NCBI GenBank assembly: GCA_944325005.1
Contig: CALUYO010000005.1
Span: 62,001 to 126,000 of the forward strand
From: Candidatus Gastranaerophilales bacterium
Lineage (GTDB): Bacteria; Cyanobacteriota; Vampirovibrionia; Gastranaerophilales; Gastranaerophilaceae
Length of the DNA stretch: 64,000 nt
Direction of reading: 5' to 3'
The position numbers and the translations under genes are program-made. Position 1 is the stretch's first letter. Each line of letters begins with the position of its first letter. The notes beneath the pieces are model-generated. The model was not told the origin of the DNA, did no database searches, and was given only the letters and a program-made list of their open reading frames with translations. Below are positions 46,630 through 55,274 of the stretch, piece by piece.

Positions 46630-47459
46630 TTATTTACATTTAGTTTTACCTTTCCATGTTAAATCATCACATTTTAAATAGTCCATATTTTCGTTATATA
46701 GAACCCAGGCTGTGCACGCATACATATTTTTATCACTAAAACCGGGATAGGGGGTGTCGATTTTTCTATTACAAGCTCTTTCAAACTCGTGTGTATCTCC
46801 TTGTATTCCAAAGGGAACTAAAGCATCTCGCGTGACATAGAAACTGAATCGATCTCTGCCATTCTTGTTAGGCAGTCTGTTTCCGTTTAGGTCAACAGAA
46901 ATCGAGCCGCATGCATGTTGTAGTGGGGTACTATTTCCTTCTCTGCTATAATTCCCGTTACATTGACCACTCCAGACTCTGAAACTTACCCTGGTCCCGT
47001 CCAATAAAATAACACTTCTAGAGAATTGTTTTCCGCTAATATCTGGCGGCGGGTTACATACTTTTTCAACAGTACTATCGTCCATATCAATACAATTATG
47101 CGACAACTTCATGTATTTAGCAATATTCTTTGCCATGATGTAATGCGAGTTTTCATCATACATTCCACCCATCCCCCATTCATCAGGGGTTCCGTTTTCT
47201 GAAACAGCCATAATAAATGCCTGGCTAACTGTAGAATAAACTTTTTTAAGCTGCGCAACTCTTTCTTTATCCTGTTTATCACTAATAAGTGCAGGCATGG
47301 TCATAGCTGCAATAACCCCGATAATACCAAGTGTGATTAAGACTTCAGCAAGCGTAAAACCATATGACGAATTTTTAAAACGACAGAAATACCTTATAAT
47401 GTAGACTAAATAAGGTTCTCGCGGGGGGGGGGCACTCTGAATGCTTCTTGTTTAAACAT
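46630..47459 (-). CDS. prepilin-like gene 5, phase-variable, out of frame in this sequence
   Basis: A type IV pilin-like protein. The core frame encodes SSYGFTLAEVLITLGIIGVI then MPALISDKQDKERVAQLKKV and a domain nearly the same as gene 4, ending NENMDYLKCDDLTWKGKTKC. No start codon exists in that frame before the core. The ribosome-binding site AGGAG precedes ATG 47459 (leader MFKQEAFRVPPP), which after ten C reads RENLI and stops. The span is 830 bases, so one added C opens 276 residues. Unlike gene 4 it has no internal start, so its expression would depend wholly on the run. Confidence 0.87.
47423..47432. repeat. homopolymer run of 10 G (C10 coding) in prepilin gene 5
   Basis: Ten G, 27 bases inside the ATG at 47459. 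Ten is out of frame with the prepilin core; eleven or eight is in frame. Confidence 0.9.
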
Positions 47460-49152: not shown

Positions 49153-50304
49153 ATGTGTATAAAAAATTTTTTATTATCAATTTTTATCTTATTGTCGTTG
49201 TTTTGTTTTGGGATTGGCAATTCTTATGCAAATACTGATAATATTTATGTGTTTAATGTCAGTATGCACGATAAAAATTTGGAAAAATTTATTATAAAAT
49301 CAAGGGAAGTTTTTGAATACAAACAAAAACAAAATTTACTGAAAACAGCTATAAAATCAATCGACAGGACATTTATAACAAAGGATAAGGCTGATGATAT
49401 TTCGGCACTGTGTTATGAACTTGCAGAGAACGCGAAATTTTATGGTGATTATGATGCTGCTTTAAAATGGTACTGGGCAGGAGCTAATGTGTATAAGAAT
49501 CCCGGGACTTATGAAAACAACCATATGGTGTTAGGACATCTTTTTAACGGTTTTGATATAACTAATAAGGCAGAACAAAATGATAATACAAAAGATTTGA
49601 AAAAGATGTTTTTGCTTGAAATCGAAAAATCCCAGTTAGGGCTTGCAGATAAGTATCCGAATATTTTTAAAGATATATTTGAATCTCTTGCGGATTATTA
49701 CAGCAATCTGAATGATGAGCAAAAGGTTTTTCAATATCAACAAAAGGCTGACAAAGCTTACGCGAAATATTTGAAAAAAAATCCGGTAGAATTAGAAGCT
49801 GAAGGTATAAAAGTTTATATATCCAATCCAAAAGTTGCTAAATACATTGACGCCGTATATAATACTGACAATTACACTGAAAAACAAAAAAATCTTATGC
49901 TGGCAGTTAATACTATTGATAAAAACAATATAAATACCCAGAATGCTTTAACTGTTGCTATTATTAATTGCTGGATCGGTCAAAATGCGAAAGAGTATGC
50001 TGATATAAATATGGCGGCTGAAGCTTTTTTAAGAAGCTATAAAATGCTGAAAGCCAAAAATATTCATAAAAATAATCGAATAGCTCTGTATTGTTTGGGG
50101 AATATTTATTATTTTTCACAGCTATCTAAAGATGAAAAATTTACGATTTCTATATTGGAAGAATTAGTTGAAACCCAGAGCGAATATGAAAAAATATACT
50201 CAAAAGTTTTTTCAGAATATTATAAAAATCTGGCCGAATATTATAAAAATGACAGTTCTAAATATGATTATTATCTCAGGAAAGCCAATGCCCTTGAAAA
50301 ATAA
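49153..50304 (+). CDS. exported protein with two internal repeats, 383 aa
   Basis: A signal peptide (residues 1-26, ending NSYA) is followed by two copies of a helical module of about 170 residues. The first has EYKQKQNLLKTAIKSIDRTF and DYDAALKWYWAGANVYKN; the second has TEKQKNLMLAVNTIDKNNIN and DINMAAEAFLRSYKMLKAKN. Each ends in an LGHLFNG or LGNIYYF segment. This looks like an ancient internal duplication of TPR-like helices. It is probably periplasmic, with no known function. GGTGA precedes the ATG. Confidence 0.7.
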   Translation: MCIKNFLLSIFILLSLFCFGIGNSYANTDNIYVFNVSMHDKNLEKFIIKSREVFEYKQKQNLLKTAIKSIDRTFITKDKADDISALCYELAENAKFYGDYDAALKWYWAGANVYKNPGTYENNHMVLGHLFNGFDITNKAEQNDNTKDLKKMFLLEIEKSQLGLADKYPNIFKDIFESLADYYSNLNDEQKVFQYQQKADKAYAKYLKKNPVELEAEGIKVYISNPKVAKYIDAVYNTDNYTEKQKNLMLAVNTIDKNNINTQNALTVAIINCWIGQNAKEYADINMAAEAFLRSYKMLKAKNIHKNNRIALYCLGNIYYFSQLSKDEKFTISILEELVETQSEYEKIYSKVFSEYYKNLAEYYKNDSSKYDYYLRKANALEK

Positions 50305-50380
50305 TATAAATTTCGCAAAAATTTTTATGTTCGATTTTTATAATAAAGTATTAAGATTAAAATAATAAGGAGAAAAATTA

Positions 50381-51016
50381 ATGTTACCTGTTTTACCGCA
50401 GATAAACCAGAGAAATATAATGCCAAACCCTGTAACAAGTTTTACCCCGAATAGATATATGCCTTTATTGATGCCGAATGATGCAATTCATCCTCAGGCA
50501 AGTGTAATCGGAAATGTTATTATCGGACGTGATGTTAATATTGCACCTTTTGCCTCTGTAAGAGGTGATGAGGGGACACCTATTTATATAGGTGAAGGGT
50601 CAAATGTTCAGGATGGCGTTGTAATTCACGGGCTTAAAAATGGACGTGTAAAAAAAGACGGTCAGGAATATTCAGTTTATGTCGGCAAAGATGTAAGCCT
50701 TGCTCATCAATCGCAGATTCACGGTCCTGCAAAAATCGGGGATAATGTCTTTGTAGGCATGCAGGCATTTGTTTATAAGTCAGAAATAGGAAATAATGTT
50801 GTAATTGAACCGGCTGCAAAGGTTATTGGTGTTAAGGTCGCTGATAATAGATATATTCCCGCCGGTGAAGTTGTAAAAACTCAGGAGCAGGCAGATAAAT
50901 TACCTGTTATTACTGATGATTATGCTAATAAAGATATGAACCATGAAGTTGTAGAAGTTAACAAAGAACTGGCATACTCATACCCTGCAAATTATTATAT
51001 GGCAAATTTTGTATAG
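50381..51016 (+). CDS. gamma-carbonic-anhydrase / CcmM N-domain-like protein, 211 aa
   Basis: A left-handed beta-helix protein with hexapeptide repeats (HPQASVIGNVIIGRDVNIAP). Zinc-ligand positions are kept: QDGVVIHGL, then SLAHQSQIHGPAKIGDNVFV with His spaced as H-x4-H. The stretches EYSVYVGKDV, AKIGDNVFVGMQAFVYKSEI and RYIPAGEVVKTQEQADKLP follow the N-terminal domain of cyanobacterial carboxysome protein CcmM closely. There are no RbcS-like repeats after it and no carboxysome genes nearby. It may be an active bicarbonate enzyme or a relic of the shared ancestor with photosynthetic Cyanobacteria. GGAG precedes the ATG. Confidence 0.82.
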   Translation: MLPVLPQINQRNIMPNPVTSFTPNRYMPLLMPNDAIHPQASVIGNVIIGRDVNIAPFASVRGDEGTPIYIGEGSNVQDGVVIHGLKNGRVKKDGQEYSVYVGKDVSLAHQSQIHGPAKIGDNVFVGMQAFVYKSEIGNNVVIEPAAKVIGVKVADNRYIPAGEVVKTQEQADKLPVITDDYANKDMNHEVVEVNKELAYSYPANYYMANFV

Positions 51017-54510: not shown

Positions 54511-55274
54511 TTACTTGCAGCTGGATTTACCGTTCCAATCGAGTTCATTGGGGCAGTGCAGGTAGTCCATATTTTCTTTAAATACTACCCATGCTGTACA
54601 ATACCAGCCCTCTCCTGTTTTGGGATTGCAGTACTGCCAGCCGGATGTTTTTGGGCTCATGCCTGTCCCGATAGGTAGAATTTTATCATTACCATATATC
54701 ACAAAATAGAATATATCTCTACCTAATGTATTTGGACCGTTGTTACCATTTAGGTCTACTGTATACGAGAAACATATATCAGTACTTGATGAACATAGTG
54801 GGTCTGTTATGTGTATAGCGACGGCTGTGCCATCACCTTGTCTGAAATTGTAATAAATTTCGTCAGAAAAATTTTCCGTTCTATCGTTACCTTTCAAATC
54901 TTTAAATCGGCCTTTATCCCCCGGTGCACAATTGTTATTGGCTGTAAGGCCGCAATCTTCGGTGATTTTTAGCTGTTTTTTCAAGTTATTTCCGACTAAA
55001 GTCAGTCCGGTGCTATCATCAGTAATACCCCAGTTTAAAATGGGGCCGTTTTCATTAACTGCCATTAAGTATGCATTTGATAGTGTCTGATAATGCTTTT
55101 TTAATTTGACTACAGTTTCTTTTTCTCTATGATTAGCAATTAACGACGGCATAGTCATCGCAGCCACTACCCCAATAATCCCGAGCGTAATTAAAACTTC
55201 TGCTAGCGTGAATCCATTAGAACCGCTTATGTTTCGCGGGGGGGGGGCAGTCTCAAAGCATCTCTATTAAACAT
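54511..55274 (-). CDS. prepilin-like gene 6, phase-variable, out of frame in this sequence
   Basis: A type IV pilin-like protein. The core frame encodes SNGFTLAEVLITLGIIGVVA then MPSLIANHREKETVVKLKKH, a cysteine-rich domain and the end KENMDYLHCPNELDWNGKSS, like genes 4 and 5. The core has no start of its own. The ribosome-binding site AGGAG precedes ATG 55274 (leader MFNRDALRLPPP, almost the same DNA as gene 2), which after ten C reads RET and stops. The span is 764 bases, so one more C gives a leader of 21 residues directly before the FTLAE site and an open 254-residue protein. This is the cleanest example of the switch. Confidence 0.88.
55238..55247. repeat. homopolymer run of 10 G (C10 coding) in prepilin gene 6
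   Basis: Ten G, 27 bases inside the ATG at 55274. With ten C the frame ends PPPRET then TAA; with eleven it continues PPPPRNISGSNG into FTLAEVL. Confidence 0.9.

Follow-up and report, generated by a model that had tools for sequence, protein, structure and literature searches.

The gene at positions 50381–51016 (+) of the 64,000 nt stretch of Candidatus Gastranaerophilales DNA analysed here (the window) is an intact open reading frame of 211 codons with an ATG start, and AAGGAG, a probable ribosome-binding site as read from the sequence, lies 8 nt before that start (50367–50372, +). NCBIfam profiles, structure matches and an AlphaFold2 model point to a Cam-type gamma-class carbonic anhydrase, and Pfam to hexapeptide repeats. 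The gene is present in a single copy, with one match in the 2.0 Mb genome holding the window, and its nearest relatives are found in Candidatus Gastranaerophilales MAGs (Melainabacteria), the ten nearest loci encoding proteins 88–95% identical to the window protein. Comparison of the gene with ten nearest relatives (L002–L008, L010–L012; 55 pairs) gave a pN/pS of 0.115, so that the frame is a real gene under purifying selection. No N-terminal hydrophobic segment was seen by eye in the 211 aa protein, which is therefore probably cytoplasmic. The Melainabacteria have been described as the non-photosynthetic sister group of the cyanobacteria, lacking carbon fixation, with the Gastranaerophilales inferred to be fermenters (PMC4040986). 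Literature searches on carbonic anhydrase in Melainabacteria, Gastranaerophilales or Vampirovibrionia, and on the carboxysome or CcmM in Melainabacteria, yielded no paper on this enzyme as judged by titles and the start of abstracts, nor was a paper found for two of its features, the lysine replacing the proton-shuttle residue Glu84 and the C-terminal YPxxYY tail.

The gene order glmS-metK-Cam-YibE/F-ruvB-aminotransferase is kept in part or whole in L002–L013, that is, in 12 of the 48 loci scanned with ten window genes. At the remaining 36 loci only the carbonic anhydrase was matched, the exceptions being L025, which gave a weak hit to the aminotransferase (32%), and L030, which gave a pilin-like one (26%). 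No conserved partner gene was found across the 19 loci with clustered neighbours, non-Cam genes being common to at most 4 of them, and an operon partner was rejected, the gene neighbourhood being conserved among the twelve nearest loci but not beyond them. A 383 aa frame just upstream of the carbonic anhydrase (49153–50304, +) has a signal-peptide-like start, judged by eye, and no Pfam match. Two further frames, of 224 and 218 aa (46630–47304 and 54511–55167, both −), have similar pilin-like starts (MTMPALI and MAAMTMPSLI) and likewise no Pfam match.

Active site, acidic loop and C-terminal tail

Alignment to Cam predicts three zinc ligands, His83 (Cam His81; 50627–50629, +), His109 (Cam His117; 50705–50707, +) and His114 (Cam His122; 50720–50722, +). 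All three are invariant in alignment A1 (36 sequences), as are the equivalents of Asn73, Gln75 and Asn202, and the three histidines are present in all 30 Gastranaerophilales rows. The His117 ligand of Cam comes from the neighbouring chain. The prototype gamma-carbonic anhydrase, Cam of Methanosarcina thermophila (PDB 1THJ, 1QRL), is 53–57% identical to the window protein depending on the method, and the two share the fold and, in Cam numbering, H81, H117, H122, R59, D61, E62, N73, Q75, D76 and N202. They differ at three of the Cam positions compared (W19→F, E84→K and Y200→E in the window protein), in the length of the acidic loop (28 aa in Cam, 18 aa in the window protein) and in the C-terminal YPxNYY tail carried by the window protein. 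In Cam, Glu62 and Glu84 have been credited with proton transfer, Trp19 and Tyr200 with tuning; Glu84 is reported to be important in Cam, and some gamma-carbonic anhydrases to be inactive (PMC4519908).

The shortened acidic loop comprises residues 84–100 (GLKNGRVKKDGQEYSVY; 50630–50680, +), within which Lys86 takes the place of Cam Glu84. Among 30 distinct Gastranaerophilales rows this position is lysine in 26, glutamate in three (L029, L030, L031) and arginine in one (L032). Counted from H81, the loop is 18 aa long in 30 of 31 Gastranaerophilales rows (21 aa in L031), 19 aa in 54/54 CcmM rows and 27–38 aa in the other Cam groups; Bacillota, Desulfobacterota and archaeal-type Cam have loops 9–10 residues longer than that of the window protein, and elsewhere in the phylum (Caenarcaniphilales, families f7 and f16) the loop measures 27–29 aa. 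Because of its 18 aa loop and Lys at position 84, the window protein is a variant, placed with Cam by overall similarity and by trees, and not a typical member. The short loop of CcmM has already been published, in a review which also states that Thermosynechococcus CcmM lacks Glu62 and Glu84 (PMC4519908). In our alignment, glutamate occupies the Glu62 and Glu84 columns in 45/52 and 42/52 CcmM rows, respectively, and the mismatch may be a matter of how the loop is aligned. A zinc histidine has been lost from some cyanobacterial CcmM domains (H81 in 2/52 rows, H122 in 2/52), and L107, L141 and L154 are among the CcmM domains without a zinc histidine or other catalytic residues.

Arranged by loop length and by the residue at position 84, the proteins form a stepwise-looking series, from the Bacillota protein L033 (27 aa, E84) through L031 (21 aa, E84), L029 and L030 (18 aa, E84) and L032 (18 aa, R) to most other Gastranaerophilales (18 aa, K). 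A CcmM-looking GRV motif in the loop is present in the relatives of the window protein and in L028, and absent from L026/L027 and L029–L032. Since the most CcmM-like letters sit in derived Gastranaerophilales members, the short loop looks convergent. The loop was most likely shortened stepwise inside the Gastranaerophilales, independently of CcmM; we infer this convergence from the aligned sequences, the branch order of L026/L027, L028 and L032 not being fixed by the trees.

Close to the C-terminus lies a lineage-specific tail, YPANYYM (residues 201–207; 50981–51001, +), recognized by motif counts and pN/pS. After a linker of variable length, YPxxYY occurs near the C-terminus of all 31 distinct Gastranaerophilales proteins (L002–L032), 29 of them with the form YPxNYY (L023 and L024 vary), and in the last 35 residues of none of 114 distinct homologues from other groups. 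YP.NYY was found in no other frame of the window, and all 61 near-C-terminal matches to the tail motif among the frames of the examined loci are Gastranaerophilales Cam. Over 55 pairs of near relatives pN/pS was 0.111 for residues 1–200, 0.491 for residues 208–211 and 0.051 for the tail itself, a rough value from seven codons only. The tail is not resolved in the AlphaFold2 monomer, in which pLDDT falls below 50 from residue 207. Since the earliest Gastranaerophilales branches already have both the tail and a shortened loop, the two may be linked.

Relationship to Cam and CcmM

The original prediction described a CcmM-type carbonic anhydrase domain with a hexapeptide helix, closer to the carboxysome protein than to general gamma-carbonic anhydrases. 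The hexapeptide repeats are borne out by Pfam (PF00132, E 1.3e-15), and the motifs that were quoted (EYSVYVG and others) are present in the translation. The RYIPAGEVVKTQEQADKLP pattern, taken as a mark of CcmM, is also found in Cam (RYIPAGMVVTSQAEADKLP) and is therefore not CcmM-specific. With every score of the window protein lying below the curated cut-off of its model, the best of the listed NCBIfam models was Cam (NF040597, 261.6 bits against a cut-off of 380), followed by CcmM (NF053794, 182.3 against 550), PaaY (67.7), CaiE (61.0) and the Gram-positive model (42.0); the NF040597 cut-off was passed in none of the 382 genomes of the class that were searched. The claimed closeness to CcmM thus holds against PaaY, CaiE and the Gram-positive model and fails against Cam. 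Comparison with solved structures in the PDB gave the same order (Cam 217–222 bits, CcmM 132–148 bits). The structure prediction that had been suggested as a check was run as a monomer (AlphaFold2, mean pLDDT 79.7; 55–67 for the other four models), and its best fold match was M. thermophila Cam (Z 31.8, rmsd 1.1 Å over 195 residues), ahead of CcmM 3kwc, which has the fold in common (Z 29.5, rmsd 1.8 Å over 194 residues).

Mean identity of the window protein was 57.2% to Bacillota (6 rows), 56.1% to archaeal-type Cam (2 rows), 53.7% to Desulfobacterota (16 rows) and 37.1% to CcmM (54 rows, maximum 40.6%), and in the all-group alignment these means barely shifted when the loop was left out. The Cam-type enzymes of Bacillota and Desulfobacterota (for example L033 and Syntrophus L035; maximum identity 62%) have phenylalanine at position 19 in 22/22 rows, as does the window protein, but differ from it in their 27 aa loop, in Glu84 (22/22 rows) and in having no YPxNYY tail. 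The gamma-carbonic anhydrase domain of CcmM from beta-cyanobacteria (PDB 3KWC, 7D6C) shares with the window protein the fold, the zinc site and a short loop, yet keeps Glu84 in 42/52 rows and Trp19 in 43/52, both replaced in the window protein, and forms its own clade. CcmM is, moreover, described as a fusion with RuBisCO-small-subunit-like domains encoded in a carboxysome locus (PMC5853843); full-length CcmM frames are mostly 543–816 aa long, whereas the window protein stops at 211 aa, with no Pfam match to a RuBisCO-small-subunit-like part. Members of the CamH/PaaY/CaiE/YrdA subclass have the left-handed beta-helix and zinc site in common with the window protein and matched its model with 23–33% identity; the seven CamH rows average 27% identity to it and have a 9 aa loop and no letter in the Glu62 column. 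The sequence comparisons indicate that the window protein is most likely a Cam-type gamma-carbonic anhydrase, closer to CcmM than to CaiE, PaaY or CamH, and closer still to Cam. Model score, length, domain make-up, clade and genome content all spoke against membership of CcmM, which was therefore rejected; what stands of a CcmM-type domain is a loop of CcmM length.

For the trees, 139 domain rows were aligned, with exact duplicates and L104–L106 left out and L157 unused, and reduced to 109 by removal of five degenerate CamH rows, the fragment L088, L047 and 23 of the 30 CcmM rows L048–L077. The Gastranaerophilales rows were monophyletic at 100% in all five finished careful trees. In the 109-row tree the 30 Gastranaerophilales rows formed one clade (100/100) inside Cam, with CcmM outside it, its branch 1.33 changes per column long and adjoining the longer CamH branch (2.02), an adjacency that the program flagged as a possible artefact. 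The window protein was excluded by the CcmM rows, including the 309 aa form, at 97–100% bootstrap in five of five finished trees, and fell inside the Cam rows in three of them (the 109-row tree, the 55-row tree and that without the loop columns), the deep forks being weak. Gastranaerophilales and the Bacillota protein L033 were joined with 94/81 (109 rows), 94/90 (55 rows, a set to which Caenarcaniphilales rows and a divergent second paralogue had been added), 94/86 (without the loop columns) and 55/87 (a set without long outgroups), and the fork was unresolved in one further set and not starred in any tree. A quick tree without CamH agreed on this grouping (SH-aLRT 89).

Four finished AU tests, in answer to the phylogenetic check put forward with the original prediction, did not reject Gastranaerophilales and CcmM as one clade (p 0.366–0.568), an outcome put down to the very long branch of CcmM, and the firm placement elsewhere that would have refuted the prediction was not obtained. 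The AU results depend on sampling, since the smaller sets (43–55 rows) were picked by hand. The tree held to this clade was 2.89 lnL better than the free tree in one hand-picked set (p-AU 0.568) and 1.19 better in the set without long outgroups (0.552), but 3.32 worse in another set (0.366) and 3.80 worse without the loop columns (0.408). When CcmM, whose placement rests on about 200 alignment columns, was grafted onto 75 backbone branches with the loop columns kept, the Gastranaerophilales stem was best (p-AU 0.805), followed by the Thaumarchaeal stem (1.1 lnL behind), Gemmatimonadota (2.0) and archaeal-type Cam (6.9), none of which was rejected; without the loop columns the Gastranaerophilales stem came third, 1.13 lnL behind (p-AU 0.711). 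Attaching CcmM just within the Gastranaerophilales, close to L029 and L031, was not rejected, and a placement inside the window protein's own subgroup was (p 7e-5 and 0.002). Trees whose bootstraps were not completed, and which carry no support values, placed CcmM on the Gastranaerophilales stem when the loop columns were kept and next to archaeal-type Cam when they were removed. The identity of ten slow CcmM rows is much the same to Gastranaerophilales (40.4%), Bacillota (40.8%) and archaeal-type Cam (42.4%), which does not favour the suggestion that the gene preserves a pre-carboxysome form of the domain. On these alignments the gene may be connected with the origin of CcmM, with little positive support beyond the loop.

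Proposed role and alternative readings

Our preferred hypothesis, to which we assign a probability of roughly 0.77, is that the gene encodes a stand-alone, cytoplasmic, probably trimeric Cam-type gamma-class carbonic anhydrase without a carboxysome role, in a genome that also encodes a beta-class carbonic anhydrase. The enzyme would interconvert CO2 and bicarbonate in a fermentative bacterium, by attack of a metal-bound hydroxide on CO2 as in Cam, and protons would be released through Glu64 (Cam E62) and buffer in place of the missing Glu84. The YPxNYY tail may be packed onto the trimer close to the trimmed loop, or it may dock to a partner. The protein is most likely active and stand-alone, and Lys84, the short loop and the YPxxYY tail would mark a new Cam variant. 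If this ordinary reading is true, non-photosynthetic relatives of the cyanobacteria carry a Cam-type carbonic anhydrase, and the gene should be neither annotated as CcmM nor read as a carboxysome relic. A natural Cam with a trimmed acidic loop and a replaced Glu84 could show how much change the gamma-carbonic anhydrase proton shuttle tolerates, and the conserved tail is a concrete motif for testing.

An unlikely alternative is that, of the living enzymes outside carboxysomes, this one is the nearest sister of the CcmM gamma-carbonic anhydrase domain, descended from the same Cam that was recruited into the beta-carboxysome and keeping its pre-carboxysome form. A short-loop Cam would then predate the split between photosynthetic and non-photosynthetic lineages or have passed between them. 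One branch would have fused to RuBisCO-small-subunit-like repeats and built the beta-carboxysome; the other would have remained a free enzyme, with loss of Glu84 and gain of the YPxNYY tail. The loop lengths of 18 and 19 aa, the occurrence of both hosts in one phylum, the first and third ranks of the Gastranaerophilales stem among the grafts, the two sets in which the held tree was likelier and the bootstrap-incomplete trees with loop columns are all in keeping with such a history, and the enzyme would, were it true, allow the origin of the CcmM domain to be studied against a free-living counterpart. The grouping is, however, absent from all five finished careful trees, the held tree was less likely in two sets, the slow CcmM rows are no closer to Gastranaerophilales than to Bacillota or archaeal-type Cam, and the deep Gastranaerophilales rows (L029–L032) do not have the GRV motif. 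Simple vertical descent, moreover, does not explain the short loop, because the loops of Caenarcaniphilales, f7 and f16 are of 27–29 aa.

We consider it more doubtful again that the protein is a catalytically dead or weak Cam homologue acting by binding, in a scaffolding or regulatory role for which the YPxNYY tail would be the docking motif. The replacement of Glu84 by lysine in 26/30 rows, together with those of Trp19 and Tyr200, would fit such a reading, as would a tail more constrained than the body of the protein, the altered zinc sites of Cam homologues in families f7 and f16 of the phylum and reports that some CcmM proteins are inactive (PMC5226100). Against this, the zinc histidines are kept throughout the Gastranaerophilales rows and, with the Asn73, Gln75 and Asn202 equivalents, throughout alignment A1, Thermosynechococcus CcmM is reported to be active despite its short loop (PMC4519908), and the 19 loci share no conserved neighbouring partner gene. 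It is very improbable that the protein is not a carbonic anhydrase but a hexapeptide acyltransferase: PF00132 and weak matches to acyltransferase models would allow it, but these matches score 30.2 (LpxD-type), 29.8 (GlmU) and 29.6 bits (LpxA-type) against 261.6 for Cam, and the protein has the zinc site and the greater part of the Cam active site.

Genome content and distribution

The original prediction had noted a gamma-carbonic anhydrase in an apparently non-photosynthetic genome with no RuBisCO or carboxysome gene in the window. The enzyme does occur in a non-photosynthetic relative of the cyanobacteria, and the second observation can be extended: neither the RuBisCO large chain (PF00016) nor the BMC shell protein (PF00936) was matched at E 0.001 in 58 genomes, including that holding the window (G000), with the RuBisCO and BMC controls positive in 5 and 2 of 14 named genomes, respectively. 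A beta-class carbonic anhydrase with CSDSR and HDDC motifs is encoded in the same genome (L196, G000:C3:96251–96679). Cam as a replacement for a lost beta-class enzyme was rejected, the latter being found in 18/23 Cam-bearing and 16/20 Cam-lacking genomes tested. Cam proper is present in 33 of 382 genomes of the class and 10 of 26 of the same genus, so that its distribution is patchy; of the 35 genomes with a match at E 1e-25 or better, two (G1167, G1250) owed it only to a divergent paralogue.

This second paralogue (L189–L193, from G1167, G1250 twice, G1271 and G1213; family f43, genus g146) is about 34% identical to the window protein, with RADEGTPFYIG or a close variant, a long loop and the zinc histidines apparently kept. 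In families f7 and f16, the Cam homologues L078, L081–L084 and L089 have longer frames in which the domain starts near residue 94–134; with one or more zinc histidines replaced, they are probably not catalytic. Second CcmM copies of 309 aa (L086 and L087, from G298 and G002) occur beside full-length CcmM in family f8, and satellite short ccmM copies have been described (PMC5853843). One cyanobacterial genome has a match to the CcmM model (G051:C1:2888000–2888500) inside a reported open frame of 24,396 aa, which could be a giant protein or an artefact.
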